From: Ferrimonas kyonanensis DSM 18153
Lineage (GTDB): Bacteria; Pseudomonadota; Gammaproteobacteria; Enterobacterales; Shewanellaceae
NCBI RefSeq assembly: GCF_000425405.1
Contig: NZ_AUDJ01000040.1
Location: forward strand, 1-39,159
Direction: 5' to 3'
Length of the DNA stretch: 39,159 nucleotides
Part shown: positions 2,441 to 15,697 of the stretch, in pieces
Layout: each line of letters begins with the position of its first letter
Position numbering within the stretch: the first letter of the stretch is position 1
Notes under the pieces: model-generated
Seen by the model: the letters and a program-made list of their open reading frames with translations, nothing else
Database searches by the model: none
Told to the model about the DNA's origin: nothing
Translations under genes and position numbers: made by a program

Positions 2441-3163
2441 TTACACCAGTTGGAGTTTGCCGGCTTCATGCACCAACTGGGCAATGTTTCTCGCCCCCAG
2501 CACCTGCTTCAACACACTGATGTGATAATCGACGCCACGCAGAGTCAGGTTGAGTTGGGAAGACACCTGCTCGCGATCCTGTCCCTGAGCAATACCCGAA
2601 AGAATGTACACCGCCAACGGGCTAATCACATTGCAGTCCACCAAGGGATGAATGTCACGACCGAACTCAAGTGCAATCTGAGTCTGCAACCGCGCCAGGC
2701 ACGCCGCGACTCTCCCCTGCTGATCGGCCAACTCTGTCAGTTGCTCCGAGCATTGCACCAACAGCATAAACCGGCCCCGCAAACGTGGCGACACCGGGCA
2801 GCATACCGACACAGTCATAACCCCATCGACCCCTTGAGCCTGCAGGTGACGAACCATCGGCGCCGGCATGCTCTGCTGTGGCCAGACACACACCTGCTGG
2901 CTCAAAAGCTGTTCGATAACAGTTTCCATGTTCCGATAAAACGGCATCTTTCTGCGCCACAAGCTCAGCGCCTGACCGGAACTGGCAAACAGTTGACGCC
3001 GCTTGGCCAGGTTGCGAATCACGTGTTCGGTGCTTTTCAGGCGCCGCCCCCAGCGCATCGGCTCATCCAAATCGTAGCAATAGCAGATGGCCTTCACCCC
3101 CAATTCGTCGCAGCCTTGTTGCAGGAGTCCGGCAATGCCAGTACCGCTATCCGCCTGTGTCAT
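2441..3163 (-). CDS. LuxR-type regulator at the end of the reductive dehalogenase cluster
   Basis: A 240-residue protein with a C-terminal LuxR/FixJ-type helix-turn-helix (about residues 180-240). The pattern is ISPLAVYILSGIAQGQ, then LNLTLRGVDYHISVLKQVLG and ARNIAQLVHEA, which matches the scaffold of the family. The N-terminal ~170 residues have the length of an autoinducer- or ligand-binding domain, but I do not see the classic acyl-homoserine-lactone residue set, so the ligand is unknown. It starts 13 bp after the zinc-ribbon gene, with a G-rich ribosome site, and is the last gene of the rdh run. It is therefore the likely regulator of reductive dehalogenation here, unlike the CRP/FNR-type CprK or two-component regulators known for other rdh clusters (established knowledge). 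Confidence 0.82.
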   Translation of the reverse strand: MTQADSGTGIAGLLQQGCDELGVKAICYCYDLDEPMRWGRRLKSTEHVIRNLAKRRQLFASSGQALSLWRRKMPFYRNMETVIEQLLSQQVCVWPQQSMPAPMVRHLQAQGVDGVMTVSVCCPVSPRLRGRFMLLVQCSEQLTELADQQGRVAACLARLQTQIALEFGRDIHPLVDCNVISPLAVYILSGIAQGQDREQVSSQLNLTLRGVDYHISVLKQVLGARNIAQLVHEAGKLQLV

Positions 3164-3176
3164 ACCCTAGCCCCCC

Positions 3177-3818
3177 TCAGCGGTAATCCGCCGCACTGCG
3201 GGTGTCGACGGCCTGAGTCAATCGGCAACGAAACAGCCGCTGATGACGCTGCTCTATCTGCTGCCTCAGCAAATTGACAATGTCCAGCGCCATGCCGTCA
3301 AACTGCCCATCCAACAGCGCGCTAGCCGATTCGTACTGGCCCAGTTGACGCAGCAATTCGACGGCCATTAGCCGCTCCTGAACCCGGTGCATATCCAAGA
3401 TCGCCAGCAGCGCCTCCATATTGGCTTGTTCCGCTTCGGTCCAGGCTACGTCAGAGCCGTCATCGTTGCGGTAGCGATGGTTTGACTGCTGCCACAGCTT
3501 TACTCGCAGATGCAACTGATGATCCGAGGGCTGACTCGCATACTGATCGAGCAGACTCTGAATCTCGGCCGGAGTCAGTGGCCGGTAGTCACAACCATTC
3601 TTCCCGCCGTTGGGGTTGACCGCCAGTTCCGGTAACCACACTGACGCCTGACAGTGGCCACAGCGGGCCACCAGCGGCTGCTCAGGCACAGTAGGGCTGT
3701 CAACGTAGCCATCACTCCACAGAGTGGCAAAACGAGCATCCACCGCCATCAGTGGCCGATGAATTAGGTCGCCACCACAGCCGCTGCAAATCAAGAACGT
3801 GTCGGGCCCATACCTCAT
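3177..3818 (-). CDS. Zinc-ribbon protein of unknown function in rdh cluster
   Basis: A 213-residue soluble protein. Two CxxC pairs, CSGC (about residue 11) and CGHC (about residue 53), flank a segment containing TLWSDGYVDSPTVPEQP and so form a probable zinc ribbon. The rest is predicted helical, with tetratricopeptide-like features (ERLMAVELLRQLGQYESASALL). Similar TLWSDG-then-CxxC proteins occur as uncharacterised families; I know no function. Its ATG overlaps the stop of the upstream membrane gene (ATGA), with AGGAGG 7-8 nt before it, so the two are translationally coupled. The position inside the rdh transcript suggests an accessory or maturation role, but that is inference. Confidence 0.75.
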   Translation of the reverse strand: MRYGPDTFLICSGCGGDLIHRPLMAVDARFATLWSDGYVDSPTVPEQPLVARCGHCQASVWLPELAVNPNGGKNGCDYRPLTPAEIQSLLDQYASQPSDHQLHLRVKLWQQSNHRYRNDDGSDVAWTEAEQANMEALLAILDMHRVQERLMAVELLRQLGQYESASALLDGQFDGMALDIVNLLRQQIEQRHQRLFRCRLTQAVDTRSAADYR

Positions 3819-3997
3819 GGTGTCACCTCCTCGCTGGACATCGCGTCACCGACGCTGTGGCGGAACTGCTGCCACACACCATCGGTGTGGATCTGCCGCG
3901 CCGAGTTAAAAAAGAACAGCAGAATCAGAAACAAGGTCACGCCACTTAATACCCGGGCGATGGGGTGCGCGTTGGGCTTACGCCGAAGTTTTGCCAT
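3815..3997 (-). CDS. Small single-helix membrane protein in rdh cluster
   Basis: A 60-residue protein starting MAKLRRKPNAHP. It has a basic N-terminus followed by one hydrophobic helix (about residues 15-33, VLSGVTLFLILLFFF) and a short polar tail. I place the start at 3997 because AAAGGAGG lies 6-7 nt upstream; a longer frame from 4036 has no such site. It overlaps the end of rdhC by 20 bp and the next gene by 4 bp, which indicates coupled translation. The family is not recognised. It could be an extra subunit or assembly factor of the RdhABC membrane complex. Confidence 0.72.
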   Translation of the reverse strand: MAKLRRKPNAHPIARVLSGVTLFLILLFFFNSARQIHTDGVWQQFRHSVGDAMSSEEVTP

Positions 3998-5249
3998 GGG
4001 AGCCTCCTTTGTGAGTCGGTGACGGGATGCCGGCATCGCACTGCACTTCGATACGGCGACTGTGATGCCAAGCCTTAGCCCGGTTCACTGCTTTGCGGCG
4101 CAGTTTCACCGACTCGTTGATGGTCAGCCCAACCGGACAGAAATAACGACACCAGAAATCGGGAATGAACGCAGCACCAAACAGCGACAGCGGCAGGATG
4201 TACCACTGCATGCCAACCCCTTCGAGGGCGAACATCATCGAAAACGGCTCATAGGAGCCCAGCGATGGGTGACGGGAGAGCAGAATCAGCATTAAAGATC
4301 CCCAAATAAGCCCTAAAATCAGGCTTCGGGCATGCTTGATCAGTACCGTTGGGGCCTTCATCGATAGGCCGGTGACCTTGGTCAGCAGGGATTGCACCGT
4401 GCTAAAGGGGCACAATTTGTGACAATAGACATTGCGGCCCAGCAATACGATGCCCACCAGAATGGCGCCCATCAGTATCCACCATAGTGGATGCTGCTTC
4501 ACACTAGGGATGTACCCCAGAACAATGCTGCTGATGCTGCCGATGCCGATAGAGGCATTGGTATAAAAGCCCACAAACAGCAGTGACACCAGCGGCAGCG
4601 ACGTTTTCAACAGCCGACTGAAACGGTGTTTCGACCCCATGCTGACCACGATTGACGCCGCCACCAGCAACAACATTCCCAACTCATCCCACCCCAACGC
4701 CCAAGGATCCGGCGTCCAGGTGGCAGGCAAGCCCAGGTGAGTCATTGCCCCCAGGTGCAGGGAGGCCCGCATCGCTTGACTGACGCCCCGGGCAGTAATG
4801 GTCGCCCCGGAGTAAGAGTCGATATCGGTATCCAATAGGAAATCGTCGGTCACCGAACGGTTAGCCAGTTGGCGGAAAAAGTGTTTCTTCTTAAGTCGCT
4901 CGATGTATGGCGGGGTTTCGGTATCCGCCAGCAGCAACACGTCGTGGGTTCGGGCCCCGGTGGCGGTGCGACTGGCGGTAATGGCCACCGTCATCGGCCC
5001 GCCATAGCCGTCCCCCTGACCCAGAATCACCACTTCGGGCTCACCCTGCTGGCGATTGCCGAACTCAAAGACTCTGGGGCCATCACCCTCGCCCGAGTAC
5101 GGCGTCAGGGTCGCCTCGGGAAAATGACTGGCCAGCAATGCCTCGTAGTCCGGGCGTGTACCTATCTGACCGATAACAAAGGCCGCGATCAGACTCAACC
5201 AGGCCAGGCTGCGGATCAGCGACGACCAAGCGAATCGTTTTACTTTCAT
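3978..5249 (-). CDS. rdhC: RdhC/PceC-like FMN-binding NosR-family membrane protein
   Basis: A 423-residue membrane flavoprotein. An N-terminal helix is followed by a periplasmic FMN-binding domain whose SGAT motif (residues 147-150, in DSYSGATITARG) is the site of covalent flavin attachment through threonine in NqrC, RnfG and PceC relatives. Five or so further membrane helices follow, with two CxxxCP motifs (C276/C280 and C367/C371) of the NosR/NirI type. In organohalide-respiring bacteria RdhC proteins are proposed to pass electrons to RdhA or assist its maturation. The ATG at 5249 has only a weak ribosome site. A strong stem-loop separates it from rdhB. Usual RdhC lengths are around 400 residues, so the protein appears complete. 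Confidence 0.88.
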   Translation of the reverse strand: MKVKRFAWSSLIRSLAWLSLIAAFVIGQIGTRPDYEALLASHFPEATLTPYSGEGDGPRVFEFGNRQQGEPEVVILGQGDGYGGPMTVAITASRTATGARTHDVLLLADTETPPYIERLKKKHFFRQLANRSVTDDFLLDTDIDSYSGATITARGVSQAMRASLHLGAMTHLGLPATWTPDPWALGWDELGMLLLVAASIVVSMGSKHRFSRLLKTSLPLVSLLFVGFYTNASIGIGSISSIVLGYIPSVKQHPLWWILMGAILVGIVLLGRNVYCHKLCPFSTVQSLLTKVTGLSMKAPTVLIKHARSLILGLIWGSLMLILLSRHPSLGSYEPFSMMFALEGVGMQWYILPLSLFGAAFIPDFWCRYFCPVGLTINESVKLRRKAVNRAKAWHHSRRIEVQCDAGIPSPTHKGGSHGKTSA

Positions 5250-5272
5250 GACATTCTCGTCTTGTGAACAAT

Positions 5273-5310
5273 GTCGGCGTGCGCAGCTTCAGCCAGCATC
5301 GCACGCCGAC
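5273..5310 (-). promoter_or_regulatory. Intercistronic stem-loop between rdhB and rdhC
   Basis: A perfect 11-bp inverted repeat, GTCGGCGTGCG (5273-5283) and CGCACGCCGAC (5300-5310), with a 16-nt loop. There is no U-run after it in the direction of transcription, so it looks like an mRNA-stability or processing element, or an attenuator, rather than a simple terminator. Confidence 0.7.
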
Positions 5311-5326
5311 CAGGAGGACGTTCGCC

Positions 5327-5605
5327 CTACAGGCGCAGGCCTTTAGGCACGTACTTACGCCAGATGAAAGCCATCAATAACAGGCCCGGCATACAGAACA
5401 CCGCCAGTCCCAGCGAGCCCGATTGCGGCACGTCCTCAATAAAGGAACTGCCGGCCCAACCAATGCCAAACAGGAAGATCAAGGCTCCGGTGATCATGCC
5501 AGCCCAGGCCAGGGCCGGCATCTGTACCCGTACCGACAGGTAAGCCAGTCCCAAAACACCCAGGGTGAACAGCATGCCCATGATAAAAAATTCCAGTAGT
5601 TCCAT
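5327..5605 (-). CDS. rdhB: RdhB-like membrane anchor of reductive dehalogenase
   Basis: A 92-residue protein made of three hydrophobic helices (starting MELLEFFIMGMLFTLGVLG, then a middle helix WAGMITGALIFLFGIGWAG and a last helix LGLAVFCMPGLLLMAFIW), ending in a basic tail. This is the size and topology of RdhB proteins (roughly 70-100 residues), which anchor RdhA to the outer face of the cytoplasmic membrane. The ATG at 5605 is preceded by GAGGAG with good spacing; an in-frame extension to 5644 runs into rdhA and lacks a site. It starts 10 bp after the rdhA stop, the standard rdhA-rdhB order. Confidence 0.85.
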   Translation of the reverse strand: MELLEFFIMGMLFTLGVLGLAYLSVRVQMPALAWAGMITGALIFLFGIGWAGSSFIEDVPQSGSLGLAVFCMPGLLLMAFIWRKYVPKGLRL

Positions 5606-5615
5606 GTCACTCTCC

Positions 5616-7196
5616 TCAGGAACGGCCGACAGCGCCGAAAACATTACGGTTGGTTGCGTTCACCCGCATCCCCTCCCCGGTATTCCAGAACTTGGTCACC
5701 TTGGCGGGGTTCTGGGTAGAGCCATAGCCAAAGGCCGGGTGCATCTCCGACATGGCACTGTGCAGCACGTCCGGAATGAACGGGTTGGCCGCCACGATCA
5801 TCCAGTGATGCCAGAAATCCGGTTCGTTAAAAGTACAGGCGGCGTTACAGGCGGCGCAGTCGCCGTCGCTCTCCATCCAGTAGTCGAAACAGCGCTTGGA
5901 GTCGACGTGGAACTTCTTGATCCCTTCGTGGTTGTTCCAGTTATAACCTGGCTGTTCCGAGTGCTCACCGACAAAGGTAAAGGTGGTGTCTTCGCCCATG
6001 GGCAACGCCTTGGACGGGCAGGCTTCGGCGCACTTTTTACAGGATTTGCAGAACTCCTCAATGCCCCAGCTGCGCGGCTGATCGTGGTCAACAAATTCCA
6101 GGTCGGTATACACTTTGCACAGGCGCAGACGCGGACCATAGCCGGGCACAATCAACTGGCCATTTCGGGCCCCCTCACCCAGGCCGGCGGCAATGCCGTA
6201 AGCCACCGAGTTACCCAGATCGTTGCCACTGGCCACAGCATGGTAACCGAGGCCGCGAATGAATTTGGCCATCTGCGACGCCAACGTCGCCATCTTGGTG
6301 TAACCGTCTCCCACGGTGCCGCCGGAGGTAAAGGTCGGTGCGGTGGCCAGGTTGTCATAGTCCATGGGCACCGCCATCACAATCACCGTCTTTGGCTCGA
6401 AAGGAAAATCCTCCTCCCAGCTAAGCTCGCGGTCCACAGGCTTAAAGTGCTCCATCGCCCCCTGCATCGCCTTGGCCATCTCCGCCTGATCGGTGATCTT
6501 GCTGACGCCCTGAGCTTCCATGGTTTCCATCATCTCCACGGTGGCACCGGCATGGTAAATCGGGTCGTAATCCCAGCGCTTATCGCGTTTAGCGATGCCA
6601 CAGCGGATGGCGCCAAACAAGCGTGCAGCACTGCGAATGGCATTGGCCGCCTCCAACTTGGAGCCAAACTGATACTGTTCATGCTCGACATCCGACTGAT
6701 CCCAGGAGAACCAGGTGGTATCCGGCACGCCCATGGCACCCAGGCGCAAATCCCATTTGTGCGGTGGACACCAGGCGGCATGGGACAACGAGCGATCCAG
6801 CTGGGTAAAGCCGAGGCGAGAGTTATCCCACCCCTTTTGCTCAAAACGAGGCACCTGAAGCTGAAAGTTGTAGTTGGGGTTGTCCTTGTTAAGCCGGCCA
6901 AACTGCTCGTTACGCTCAGGATGGCGCATCATCAGCATCGGGCTGCCGGCATAGGACCACATGTGGTCACGACCGGGAAAGGGCTTGAAATCGTCTGCCA
7001 ACTGCGGCCAACCGGGATTGAGTTTTCCCTCGATGGATACCCGGCCAACGCCATAGGCTCCCAGGCCCGCCGCCAGTACAGCGCCACCACCCAGCGCCGC
7101 CCGTTTAAACAGTTGGCGACGTTGTGGATTGTCCAGCAACCCCTCGGAATCCTGCGGGCAATCAGGCTGGCCCGGTGTAGCTTGTTTTTGAGTCAT
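5616..7196 (-). CDS. rdhA: Tat-exported corrinoid/iron-sulfur reductive dehalogenase
   Basis: A 526-residue catalytic subunit that replaces a halogen by hydrogen on an organic substrate, using a corrinoid and two Fe-S clusters. A twin-arginine signal (R26-R27-Q-L-F-K) is followed by a hydrophobic stretch to about residue 48. The family core has MDYD (278-281), YTKMA (Y299, a candidate for the catalytic tyrosine), FIRGLGYHA, AAGLGEGARNG and DLEFVDHDQP. Two ferredoxin motifs are intact: C383-x2-C386-x2-C389-x3-C393 and C436-x10-C447-x2-C450-x3-C454. Signal peptide plus RdhB/RdhC marks the membrane-bound, respiratory-type class, not the cytosolic catabolic class (NpRdhA, BhbA). The substrate cannot be read from sequence. 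The ATG at 7196 has GATGGG just upstream. No corrinoid biosynthesis gene or trigger-factor-like RdhT is in the window. Confidence 0.95.
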   Translation of the reverse strand: MTQKQATPGQPDCPQDSEGLLDNPQRRQLFKRAALGGGAVLAAGLGAYGVGRVSIEGKLNPGWPQLADDFKPFPGRDHMWSYAGSPMLMMRHPERNEQFGRLNKDNPNYNFQLQVPRFEQKGWDNSRLGFTQLDRSLSHAAWCPPHKWDLRLGAMGVPDTTWFSWDQSDVEHEQYQFGSKLEAANAIRSAARLFGAIRCGIAKRDKRWDYDPIYHAGATVEMMETMEAQGVSKITDQAEMAKAMQGAMEHFKPVDRELSWEEDFPFEPKTVIVMAVPMDYDNLATAPTFTSGGTVGDGYTKMATLASQMAKFIRGLGYHAVASGNDLGNSVAYGIAAGLGEGARNGQLIVPGYGPRLRLCKVYTDLEFVDHDQPRSWGIEEFCKSCKKCAEACPSKALPMGEDTTFTFVGEHSEQPGYNWNNHEGIKKFHVDSKRCFDYWMESDGDCAACNAACTFNEPDFWHHWMIVAANPFIPDVLHSAMSEMHPAFGYGSTQNPAKVTKFWNTGEGMRVNATNRNVFGAVGRS

Positions 7197-7387
7197 TTCC
7201 CATCTCGCAATAGTAGTAATGGAAATATTGTCGGCAATTCAAACCTAGAGATTATTAATTTATTGAACACCAACATCTTGGCCTAAAATATTATCCAATA
7301 TCACTCACCCCAAATAGCCCCGCTCAGGTAACTCACAATTTCATATTTGATAATCGCAGTAAGTCATGGACTTCAAACACCCACTGC

Positions 7388-7790: not shown

Positions 7791-9050
7791 ATGAATCGTT
7801 CTTCTAAATATCTTTCTCTGGGCTTAGTTGCCCTCTCTGCCACCCTTGCCACTACGGTCAACGCCAGTGGCCTGCTTCGGGACGACACCGCCTCCGCCTA
7901 CCTCGGCAGCGCCGGTGCCGGCCGCGCCGCCGACATCAGTGCCGGTGCCGCCTTCAACAATCCGGCCGGACTGGCCTTTATAGAACAACGGCAAGTCGAG
8001 GCAAACCTGATGGCCATCGACCACCACTTCAACTTTAAGGATCAAGGCTCCAGCGGCAGCAACGACGGCTTCGACCAGCGTCGCCGAAATGTCGACTACG
8101 ATGTCGGTGTCGCTGCGGGTAATTCGCTGTTTTACGGCCAGCCACTCGATGAGAACTGGGGCATGGGCCTGGCCCTGGCGTCGCCGGCAGGTGGCGCTGC
8201 CGACTTCGGCAGCAACTGGGTCGGAGACAACTTTATCGAGTCTGTAGACGTGCTGGTACTGACGGCCACCGCTTCAGTGGGCTACCGAATCAACCAACAA
8301 TGGTCGTTAGGGGCCAGTCTTGGGGCCAATTACATGAGCTGGGAGCTGGACATGGCACCGTTTCCCGGTGCCAGCGAAAACCTGGACCTGAGCAGCACCG
8401 AGTTCACCTGGTCGATGGGGCTGATGTACCGTCCGGACGAACTCACTCGCCTGGGGTTGCGCTATGTGGCGGGCGTTGAACATGAGTTGACCGGCGACAC
8501 CACCCTAATCAGCCCCATGGGCACCCAAAAGGATCAGGCCACCCACGTATTTAATCTGGCAGACTTGGTTACTTTCAGTCTGGATCGCCAACTCGGCGCA
8601 GGCTGGACCCTGTTGGCGGATCTGGAATGGGCACAATGGTCCGATCTGGAGGAGAGTCGCATCGTCCATGACCACGGCCCCACCATCGTTATTCCCCGCA
8701 ACTGGAACGACGCCTGGAGTGCCGCCATCGGCTTCAACTACCGGCTCAGCCAACAATGGTTGCTCGAGGCCGGCATCGCCTACGATCAGTCGGTGGTGTC
8801 AAAAGCTGACCACAAACTGGATCCGCCCATGGATCGCCAGCTCGCCTACGCCGTCGGCGCCAGCTGGCAGGTGAGTGAACGCACTCGCCTCGACCTGAAC
8901 TATCAATACCTGGATCTGGGCGACATCGAAGTCAATCAGGCCATCAACGGCTATGACCCCATTGCTGAGGCGCCTTTCCAACAACAGATTCGAGGTCAAA
9001 GTGAGGCCCATATTCACCTCCTTAGCCTGGGATTAAGTCACCAGTTTTAA
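7791..9050 (+). CDS. FadL/TodX-family outer-membrane hydrophobic-compound channel
   Basis: A 419-residue protein with a signal peptide (cleaved near VNA-SG) and an outer-membrane beta-barrel of the OmpP1/FadL/TodX family. The NPAG motif in FNNPAGLAFIEQRQVEA is the family hallmark. The remainder alternates short amphipathic strands with aromatic girdles, ending in HLLSLGLSHQF with a terminal Phe as outer-membrane proteins do. FadL-type channels import long-chain fatty acids or, in TodX/XylN relatives, aromatic hydrocarbons. Being divergent from rdhA, it may import a hydrophobic halogenated substrate; fatty-acid transport is the alternative. AAGGG lies 7 nt before the ATG. Confidence 0.9.
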   Translation: MNRSSKYLSLGLVALSATLATTVNASGLLRDDTASAYLGSAGAGRAADISAGAAFNNPAGLAFIEQRQVEANLMAIDHHFNFKDQGSSGSNDGFDQRRRNVDYDVGVAAGNSLFYGQPLDENWGMGLALASPAGGAADFGSNWVGDNFIESVDVLVLTATASVGYRINQQWSLGASLGANYMSWELDMAPFPGASENLDLSSTEFTWSMGLMYRPDELTRLGLRYVAGVEHELTGDTTLISPMGTQKDQATHVFNLADLVTFSLDRQLGAGWTLLADLEWAQWSDLEESRIVHDHGPTIVIPRNWNDAWSAAIGFNYRLSQQWLLEAGIAYDQSVVSKADHKLDPPMDRQLAYAVGASWQVSERTRLDLNYQYLDLGDIEVNQAINGYDPIAEAPFQQQIRGQSEAHIHLLSLGLSHQF

Positions 9051-9055
9051 CCACT

Positions 9056-9089
9056 GACTTAGGCCCAGGAACCCCCGACGCCCTAAGTC
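9056..9089 (+). terminator. Stem-loop after FadL-type gene
   Basis: Arms GACTTAGG (9056-9063) and CCTAAGTC (9082-9089), 8 bp perfect, 18-nt loop, no strong U-run. A weak terminator or mRNA 3' end structure. Confidence 0.4.
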
Positions 9090-9205
9090 TTATGACTAGT
9101 GACAGACAAATCCCCACCTGCTACCGGGCTCACTGTGTGGTGCCCGGTTTCGTTGCTACTATCAGGAGACAGAGCCTTCGACCGCCAAGACAAGACAGGA
9201 TAACT

Positions 9206-10123
9206 ATGCACCAAATCTCCCTCGACGACCTTCGTTTGGTTAACCACATCGCCAAAGTCGGCAGTTTCGCCCGCGCTGCAGACTCCCTGGCTCAACCTCG
9301 TCCCAGCGTGACCCGGCGCATCAAACAACTGGAGTCCCATCTCGGCGTAGTGCTGTTTCAGCGTTCAACCCGGCAACTGGCCTTAACACCGGAAGGAGAG
9401 GCATTCCTGCAACACAGCCAGGCCATTGAGATGCAGTGGCTGGAGGCCACCGAGCGCATGAAGACCACCACCTGCGAACCGAGCGGCAAACTCAGAGTCA
9501 GTGCCTTGGGCCTGTTTAACCGGGTGATCGCCGGACCGGTGCTGTCCGAGTTCGTACGCAAGTACCCCAACATTGACCTGGAGCTAAGGTCCACCTGGTC
9601 GGCCCCCGATGCCACCAAATTCGATGTCGATTTGATGTTCAACACCAAGCCTTTGAACGACAAAAGTTTCGTCAGTGAACCGCTGTCGCTCACCAAACGT
9701 GACTTTTATGCCAGCCCGGAGTACCTGAAAACTGCCGGCACCCCAAGTAACATTCAGGAGTTGAATGATCACCACCTGGTGGTGCTCAATTACACCGATC
9801 TCGGCGACGGCGACTGGTATTGGCAGGATGGCGACCAACTGCAGACACTGCCAGTTCACAGCCACCTTCGCCTGGATGAGGCCGAAGCGGCGCTGCAGAT
9901 GACCTTGCTGGGTCATGGCATCTGCTGGCTACCGGATTTTTGCTGCAACCAGTATCTGGAAAGCGGCCAGTTGGTGCGCCTGTTTGACGGCCGCTTCGCC
10001 ACTCCCGGCCCCCTGTGGGCCATCTACCCCAGGACCCCGTTTGAGAATCATCGCATGCGGCTGTTTATCGAAATGGCCAGAGCCAGCGAATTGCTGGGAG
10101 AGCCGGCCCCGCGCCGGCGCTGA
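9206..10123 (+). CDS. LysR-family transcriptional regulator
   Basis: A 305-residue LysR regulator. The N-terminal winged helix (MHQISLDDLRLVNHIAKVGS, then FARAADSLAQPRPSVTRRIKQLE) is followed by the periplasmic-binding-protein-like effector domain from about residue 90. I start at the ATG at 9206, which has AGGA 6 nt upstream and gives the usual LysR N-terminus; the open frame extends back to 9092 without support. It lies on the same strand as, and just after, the FadL-type gene and is convergent with aidB. Its target could be the FadL gene or the rdh promoter. The effector is unknown. Confidence 0.92.
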   Translation: MHQISLDDLRLVNHIAKVGSFARAADSLAQPRPSVTRRIKQLESHLGVVLFQRSTRQLALTPEGEAFLQHSQAIEMQWLEATERMKTTTCEPSGKLRVSALGLFNRVIAGPVLSEFVRKYPNIDLELRSTWSAPDATKFDVDLMFNTKPLNDKSFVSEPLSLTKRDFYASPEYLKTAGTPSNIQELNDHHLVVLNYTDLGDGDWYWQDGDQLQTLPVHSHLRLDEAEAALQMTLLGHGICWLPDFCCNQYLESGQLVRLFDGRFATPGPLWAIYPRTPFENHRMRLFIEMARASELLGEPAPRRR

Positions 10124-15606: not shown

Positions 15607-15697
15607 TGGCGGAGAGATAGGGATTTGAACCCTAGAAGGGCTATAAACCCTTGCCGGTTTTCAAGACCGGTGCTTTCAACCACTCAGCCATCTCTCC
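15607..15697 (-). tRNA. tRNA-Ser(UGA), copy 2
   Basis: A 91-nt class II tRNA identical to the copy at 2218-2308: same acceptor stem, TGA anticodon in CTTGAAA, long variable arm, encoded CCA. Both copies have the same orientation. Confidence 0.97.

Follow-up and report, generated by a model that had tools for sequence, protein, structure and literature searches.

A candidate eight-gene organohalide-respiration cassette in Ferrimonas and Shewanella

The DNA analysed here, called the window, is a contig of 39,159 nucleotides from Ferrimonas kyonanensis DSM 18153 (NZ_AUDJ01000040.1, positions 1 to 39,159), and its subject is a reductive dehalogenase (rdh) gene cluster. Six genes, namely, rdhA, rdhB, rdhC, a gene for a one-helix membrane protein, a gene for a zinc-ribbon protein, and luxR, lie head to tail on the minus strand from 2441 to 7196, and a FadL-type channel gene and a lysR gene lie divergently on the other side of rdhA. 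The features are listed below.

5616-7196, minus strand: rdhA, reductive dehalogenase catalytic subunit of 526 amino acids with a twin-arginine translocation (Tat) signal and two 4Fe-4S motifs.
6435-6542, minus strand: clade-specific insert of 36 residues in RdhA (residues 219-254), from the alignment of RdhA rows.
5327-5605 (alternative start 5644), minus strand: rdhB, membrane anchor with three hydrophobic stretches, from position, hydrophobicity and homologues behind rdhA.
3978-5249, minus strand: rdhC, coding for a membrane flavoprotein that has an FMN_bind domain and two CX3CP motifs.
3815-3997 (alternative start 4036), minus strand: gene for a one-helix membrane protein, after rdhC, from profile matches.
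3177-3818, minus strand: gene for a zinc-ribbon and helical-hairpin protein, from invariant cysteines, an AlphaFold2 (AF2) model and genome co-occurrence.
2441-3163, minus strand: luxR, LuxR-type one-component regulator, from PF00196, an AF2 model and alignment with 18 relatives.
7330-7353, minus strand: conserved 24-nt box TTATCANNNNNGAAATNNTGAGTT upstream of rdhA, the sole exact copy in the genome.
7791-9050, plus strand: FadL/TodX-type outer-membrane channel gene, divergent from rdhA (PF03349).
9092-10123, plus strand: LysR-type regulator gene behind the channel gene (PF00126 and PF03466).

An earlier note on this DNA had described a six-gene cluster, and its gene order, overlaps of 20 and 4 bp and gap of 13 bp agree with the coordinates of the open reading frames (ORFs). 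These spacings hold with the second ATG, which is preceded by AAAGGAGG, as the start of the one-helix gene, which then overlaps rdhC by 20 bp and the zinc-ribbon gene by 4 bp, while 13 bp separate the latter from luxR. For rdhB the second ATG is also the better start, 10 bp past the end of rdhA, and 77 bp lie between rdhB and rdhC. The closest named relative of the host is F. sediminum, whose RdhA is 96% identical, and the next, among the best 80 of 90 loci, is F. futtsuensis; the strains F. sediminum DSM 23317 and F. futtsuensis DSM 18154 each have the cassette. These best 80 loci, found by two peptide patterns of this RdhA clade, are the ones compared throughout, and the tree and the tables describe that sample. 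The ratio of nonsynonymous to synonymous substitution rates (dN/dS) against F. sediminum is 0.03-0.17 for the six genes, which indicates purifying selection, and for all eight it lies far under 1. With two less closely related Ferrimonas it is at most 0.26 wherever measured, the one-helix gene having been compared with F. sediminum only and rdhC without L110; the distant-pair ratios are rough because many dS values exceed 1.

The extent of six genes did not stand, because the divergent pair at 7791-10123 is part of the unit, which makes it one of eight genes. The channel protein matches PF03349 over nearly its full length with 199.1 bits against a cut-off of 29.7 and thus belongs to the FadL/TodX family, and the LysR protein matches PF00126 and PF03466. 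The pair has the same position beside rdhA in the window, L021-L025, L110 and L111; L026 is uninformative on the channel because its contig stops 1.7 kb upstream. At L019 and L020, which hold two further rdhA copies of the host genome, a Phenol_MetA_deg channel and a LysR gene are found instead. The boundaries are seen by comparison with other Ferrimonas. In G295, the genes for elongation factor G, a nitroreductase, AidB and tRNA-Ser lie together with the cassette absent, an empty site. The cassette lies between the nitroreductase and AidB genes in G305 and G299; in F. sediminum and the window it is flanked by AidB and tRNA-Ser instead. G301 (L124 6425-7530) has a deletion scar in which the truncated ends of lysR and luxR lie between the nitroreductase and AidB genes. 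The other two of the four cassette-free Ferrimonas compared, G030 and G306, have AidB without the remaining neighbours and are uninformative on the empty site. These observations fit a single unit running from lysR to luxR that occupies either of two positions, was lost by deletion in G301 and is not present in G295, and the empty site and the scar fit eight genes, with the channel gene and lysR belonging to the other six. Next to the cassette, at 1631-2236, a unit of about 157 nt occurs four times in tandem, with a terminator-like hairpin and a piece that is in part complementary to the adjoining tRNA-Ser(tga) gene (2218-2308); another tRNA-Ser(tga) gene is at 15607-15697.

The RdhA is a reductive dehalogenase by its match to TIGR02486 (203.5 bits against the curated cut-off of 160.35); with Pfam PF13486 it scores 12.4 bits, below the cut-off of 24.3. 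Compared with characterised dehalogenases, its best PDB chain is 8q4h, a tetrachloroethene reductive dehalogenase (E 4.8e-63). The N-terminal region has the Tat motif RRQLFK with its arginines kept, and all eight cysteines of the two Fe-S motifs are kept, the first being C383-x2-C-x2-C-x3-C393-P and the second C436-x10-C-x2-C-x3-C454, with the spacing of S. multivorans PceA in the alignment. Thus motif reading and alignment confirm the intact Tat signal and Fe-S motifs noticed earlier, and by its sequence the protein appears to be of the respiratory type, as had been proposed. Y299, N325 and R358 align with Y246, N272 and R305 of S. multivorans PceA, which we take to be the catalytic Tyr, Asn and Arg. 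Assignment as epoxyqueuosine reductase (QueG) was rejected, since TIGR00276 gave 31.2 against 200 bits and a separate QueG is encoded in the genome (G000:C4:256391-257395, 466.5 bits). The earlier note had staked its claim on the RdhA not being a QueG and on the gene order recurring in related loci; both hold, and the order recurs in other marine genomes. An RdhA of this kind could also serve detoxification or carbon release and not respiration, and the host has many other haem proteins, which makes halogen respiration one option among many. However, the Tat signal, the RdhB anchor and the FMN protein RdhC are marks of the respiratory type, and the match to PDB 4ras/6zxu, presumably the catabolic NpRdhA, is much weaker than the best match (52 against 216 bits), so we think such a role quite unlikely.

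RdhA is present in 5 of 14 Ferrimonas genomes, and the host has four copies at three places together with a CobB/CbiA gene for corrinoid synthesis and a gene for an ApbE flavin transferase (L106). In the clade that carries the zinc-ribbon gene, RdhA has an insert of 36-43 residues. The segment in question is 51-58 residues long in 9 of 104 RdhA rows, and these are exactly the nine loci with the zinc-ribbon gene; the rows come from the collected loci and include three duplicated loci and some fragments. The same segment has about 15 residues in other gammaproteobacterial RdhA of the branch, and some rows of Bacteroidota and Sansalvadorimonas, which have no zinc-ribbon gene, contain segments of 35-46 residues with dissimilar sequences. 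In structural work on PceA, this segment is the insertion unit, which lies beside the substrate channel. The nine insert-bearing RdhA form one clade from Ferrimonas, Shewanella and one Thalassotalea metagenome-assembled genome (MAG), with a Shimodaira-Hasegawa-like approximate likelihood ratio test (SH-aLRT) value of 98, in a tree that left out L014, L015 and L016 (the same DNA as L029, L043 and L042), L084, whose frame is split, and two fragments, from L099 and L100.

Other types of RdhA were also seen. L019 (14324-19595, G000:C3) has a divergent type in which Pro aligns with the active-site Asn. A gene for a tetratricopeptide repeat (TPR) protein precedes it, and rdhB, rdhC, one-helix and LuxR genes follow it; F. 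sediminum has this RdhA type too (L051), as do three loci of Shewanella (L049, L052 and L096). L018 (5131-11818, Ferrimonas G030) has a distant RdhA with Thr aligned to the Asn; judged by eye, one ORF nearby has a Tat signal and another, a small one, is cytochrome-like.

RdhB is identified as a small membrane protein adjoining rdhA with three hydrophobic stretches, no curated Pfam or NCBIfam model being matched; the rdhB profile drifted into rdhC, and its large matches in the locus table are rdhC. RdhC is assigned by PF04205 (FMN_bind) and PF12801 (Fer4_5), both above cut-off, and by SGATIT at 147, CHKLCP at 276 and CRYFCP at 367; five hydrophobic stretches were found against the six helices described in PMC5928378 (for this and every other paper cited here, our statements concern the part of the text accessible to us). 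The one-helix profile finds 17 distinct loci, some with weak scores, mainly in Gammaproteobacteria with single MAGs from other classes, and in all of them the gene is directly behind rdhC. By a mechanical rule applied with no chance control, a small ORF with one hydrophobic stretch follows 35 of 59 rdhC genes, 3 of 62 having been excluded as duplicates or contig ends. Thus the one-helix protein, which had been listed as unusual, is common behind rdhC in other bacteria and looks like an rdhC companion and not a peculiarity of the cassette.

The zinc-ribbon protein is different. Its nine members have four invariant Cys and a helical C-terminal half in common, and the AF2 model has a mean predicted local distance difference test (pLDDT) score of 83.5. 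No counterpart was found in Pfam, NCBIfam, PDB sequences or by Foldseek on PDB, in agreement with the earlier statement that it lies outside the known accessory set. The top Foldseek matches were TPR-type and other helical repeats, and since the best E is 0.11 and none is at or below 0.001, the name TPR fold is only a lead; PF25170 gave 13.1 against 27 bits, which does not place the protein among TPR proteins. A match of the model to 8ye5/TmrC (E 0.52) was not used. In a survey of 152 genomes of the host's family, host included, with an RdhA threshold of E <= 1e-25 and at most 10 zinc-ribbon candidates scored per genome, the gene was present in 9 of 12 rdhA-positive and 0 of 140 rdhA-negative genomes. 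Two of the ten matches are listed with an internal stop, and in both the frame is open from the ATG (G380; L026 for G412). The gene adjoins an insert-bearing RdhA in 8 of the 9 genomes, Shewanella G380 being the exception. Of the three proteins thought unusual, it is the only one specific to the cassette.

The loci with the zinc-ribbon gene and the insert form one clade with one change on the tree, and a single event could therefore explain both. This bears on the explanation that the locus is an ordinary rdh cluster, rdhABC with locally recruited regulators and hypothetical genes, in which the zinc-ribbon gene rides along by descent. Such a clade needs only a single origin, RdhC of Ferrimonas, Vibrio and Photobacterium has already been published (PMC5928378), and so has a LuxR gene near rdh genes in Desulfoluna (PMC7031245). 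On the other hand, the zinc-ribbon gene is under purifying selection (dN/dS 0.11-0.26), and it is retained in place in loci that lack rdhC (L023-L025) or luxR (L027 and L028), and this explanation is in our judgement rather unlikely. It is also conceivable that the zinc-ribbon protein is a regulatory partner of LuxR and not an RdhA helper, because its gene adjoins luxR in the window, L021-L026, L110 and L111 and a remnant in G380 retains exactly these two genes. However, L027 and L028 have the zinc-ribbon gene and insert-bearing RdhA without luxR, and the host genome has 20 LuxR-family matches against one zinc-ribbon gene, which makes the partnership unlikely.

We favour an RdhA helper. TPR genes occur in some deltaproteobacterial rdh clusters (clade 5; PMC6299228). 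Among the loci compared here, a gene for an FKBP-type isomerase lies upstream of rdhA in Psychromonas L015, and the TPR protein gene mentioned above precedes the second rdhA within L019 of the host. The trigger factor PceT (RdhT) is a helper in rdh clusters, and among the six proteins no trigger-factor or peptidyl-prolyl isomerase Pfam match was found at E <= 1. Since other rdh loci have such helper-like neighbours (FKBP-type isomerase, TPR proteins and PceT), a maturation role for the zinc-ribbon protein is favoured.

The regulator encoded by luxR is of the LuxR type by its match to the GerE helix-turn-helix family PF00196 (29.1 against 23.5 bits), which is matched by 19 of 19 family members at E <= 10, and the AF2 model has a pLDDT of 89. 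Its N-terminal domain has no Pfam match, and PF03472, which we take to be the autoinducer-binding domain of quorum-sensing LuxR, is listed for 0 of the 19 at E <= 10. The family is found in 19 of 85 distinct loci, all from Ferrimonas or Shewanella except for a weak match in L100, and has matches in 8 of 14 Ferrimonas genomes. Three of the 20 in the host sit in rdh loci. The surroundings of 13 of the remaining 17 were examined. In 12 of these the neighbour is an ORF that is 558-733 residues long and has four CXXCH motifs, and in 11 of the 12 ORFs a lipobox-like motif lies close to the start. For one of the 13 (L108 11074-11259) and for the other four of the 17, the match covers only the DNA-binding part. 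Because copies lie next to four-CXXCH proteins, the regulator seems to stem from a family whose members act as local switches of proteins for extracytoplasmic electron transfer. This removes its standing as an unusual rdh accessory, since it belongs to a large Ferrimonas family and a LuxR gene by rdh genes had already been published (PMC7031245). At L101 (6086-17531, G000:C12) four LuxR-family and four-CXXCH gene pairs follow one another, with a lipobox-like start in three of the four.

The region between the channel gene and rdhA is poorly conserved except for the block TTATCA-N5-GAAAT-N2-TGAGTT, the box, which lies 16 nt upstream of a pair that by eye is sigma-70-like (TTGANN or TTGGGG, 17, TATTNN). 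The box was defined on seven loci (the window, L021-L025 and L110), and matching allows at most two mismatches. It is upstream of rdhA in 8 of 8 distinct loci with insert-bearing RdhA and LuxR, L026 being the only independent one, and in 0 of 2 loci with insert-bearing RdhA and the zinc-ribbon gene and no LuxR (L027 and L028). Four other matches in the collected DNA, with two mismatches each, look like chance. The host genome has, besides the exact copy, one with two mismatches, and the reversed-pattern control gave one match. Perfect palindromes with 7-nt arms occur in this region in three of the seven loci, none common to them. Six paralogous rdhA loci have a different conserved block upstream of rdhA, TGCNNTTTTTGCAAA in most rows, and all six have an rdh-linked LuxR-family gene (one is L114).

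Alternatively, organohalides could be sensed by LysR, which would then switch rdhA by way of the box, with LuxR responding to some general signal, for instance redox state. Of the 85 distinct loci, 31 have a related LysR gene, among them the LuxR-free rdhA loci L048, L050, L059, L060, L064, L070 and L071, and the position of LuxR relatives beside many four-CXXCH proteins suggests a respiratory and not a halogen-specific role. Against this, the box goes with LuxR in the eight loci and is absent from the two without it, although L028 has LysR directly upstream; there are only two such negatives, and we regard sensing by LysR as rather unlikely.

Taken together, we think it fairly probable that the eight genes form a cassette for organohalide respiration, found in Ferrimonas and Shewanella, that brings along an uptake channel, a LuxR switch and a helper for RdhA. 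The distinct gammaproteobacterial cassette of the earlier note thus survives in part, since it recurs in marine genomes and the zinc-ribbon protein is specific to it, whereas the unit has eight genes and neither the one-helix protein nor LuxR is special. Family knowledge and the anatomy of the genes suggest how it would work. The FadL-type channel would be the route by which a halogenated, hydrophobic compound crosses the outer membrane, and the Tat-exported RdhA, expected to hold a corrinoid and two Fe-S clusters and anchored by RdhB, would dehalogenate it at the outer face of the inner membrane. Electrons would come from the quinol pool via RdhB and/or RdhC, which the one-helix protein would accompany. 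From position and co-occurrence we infer the remaining steps. LuxR may be a one-component activator whose N-terminal domain senses the compound or its product and which binds the box upstream of the rdhA promoter, and LysR may control the divergent channel gene, or both directions. The zinc-ribbon protein may be a helper of RdhA in this clade, its most probable task being the loading of cofactors or the export of the pre-protein, and perhaps contacts the helical insert near the substrate channel.

Several points weigh against this picture. The loci were found by two clade-specific peptide patterns and therefore distant clusters are under-sampled, and within the clade the co-occurrence of zinc-ribbon gene and insert, of LuxR and box, and of FadL may be mere shared descent. 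In Shewanella G380 (L138 7783-10538), the zinc-ribbon gene and luxR lie by ORFs that by eye are transposase-like, with no rdhA within 20 kb around them and five RdhA genes elsewhere in the genome. In the Shewanella loci L023-L025 both rdhC and the one-helix gene are missing, so the two can be dispensable there. For the helical half of the zinc-ribbon protein Foldseek on PDB gave only weak TPR-like matches, L026 has the box and lacks the -35-like part, and LysR is a rival sensor to LuxR. The substrate and activity of the cassette are predictions from its genes.

A bolder proposal is that the zinc-ribbon protein is a dedicated assembly factor of this RdhA clade that recognises the helical insert near the substrate channel, and that LuxR represents an organohalide sensor of a new type, taken from a Ferrimonas family of one-component switches in which every member controls a single extracytoplasmic electron-transfer protein; we offer this tentatively and think it rather unlikely. 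Reductive dehalogenases are hard to make in other hosts. If the cassette is what we propose, it would be a compact unit with an uptake channel, a regulator outside the types named below as characterised, and a candidate maturation factor. Marine Gammaproteobacteria with wide respiratory abilities may contribute to natural halogen cycling.

Part of this was known. Ferrimonas RdhC sequences were reported in 2018, with Ferrimonas as a candidate organohalide respirer (PMC5928378). The characterised rdh regulator types named in the accessible text of PMC12090745 are CRP/FNR, two-component and MarR, and the LuxR described here lies outside these three. LuxR and MarR genes flank rdhA2 of Desulfoluna (PMC7031245), and sigma-54 activators are found in other deltaproteobacterial rdh clusters (PMC7031245, PMC6299228); the Ferrimonas LuxR profile had no match in two Desulfoluna loci (L094 and L095), which may not be the rdhA2 cluster. 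As far as their accessible text goes, LuxR adjoins dsrAB and not rdhA in PMC4959651 and appears only in the references or a list of families in PMC8547461 and PMC6771000. No literature on marine gammaproteobacterial RdhA and LuxR together was found, and no description of the eight-gene unit, the zinc-ribbon protein or the box was found in the literature searched, most subscription papers being outside its reach. Thus Ferrimonas RdhC and LuxR near rdh genes are already known, and the eight-gene unit, the zinc-ribbon protein and the box are apparently new.

PceA has a Tat signal and an RdhB partner, as here. The present RdhA shares with PceA (S. multivorans PceA, 4uqu; PDB 8q4h) the Fe-S spacing and, by alignment, the active-site Tyr, Asn and Arg, and differs in its 51-58-residue segment and in belonging to a clade of its own from Ferrimonas, Shewanella and the Thalassotalea MAG. 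The order rdhA-rdhB-rdhC is that of pceABCT of Dehalobacter and Desulfitobacterium, whose RdhC likewise has an FMN site and two CX3CP motifs (PMC5928378). Unlike pceABCT, the Ferrimonas cassette has no gene for a trigger-factor-type PceT or a CRP-type regulator and has instead the zinc-ribbon protein, LuxR, the FadL channel and LysR. The rdh clusters of Desulfoluna and other Deltaproteobacteria are likewise marine, whereas their RdhA belong to a different clade in the tree, and no FadL or zinc-ribbon gene is mentioned in the accessible text on them (PMC7031245, PMC6299228). With the FadL/TodX channels the outer-membrane protein shares PF03349, and in this cassette its gene is divergently paired with that of a reductive dehalogenase.

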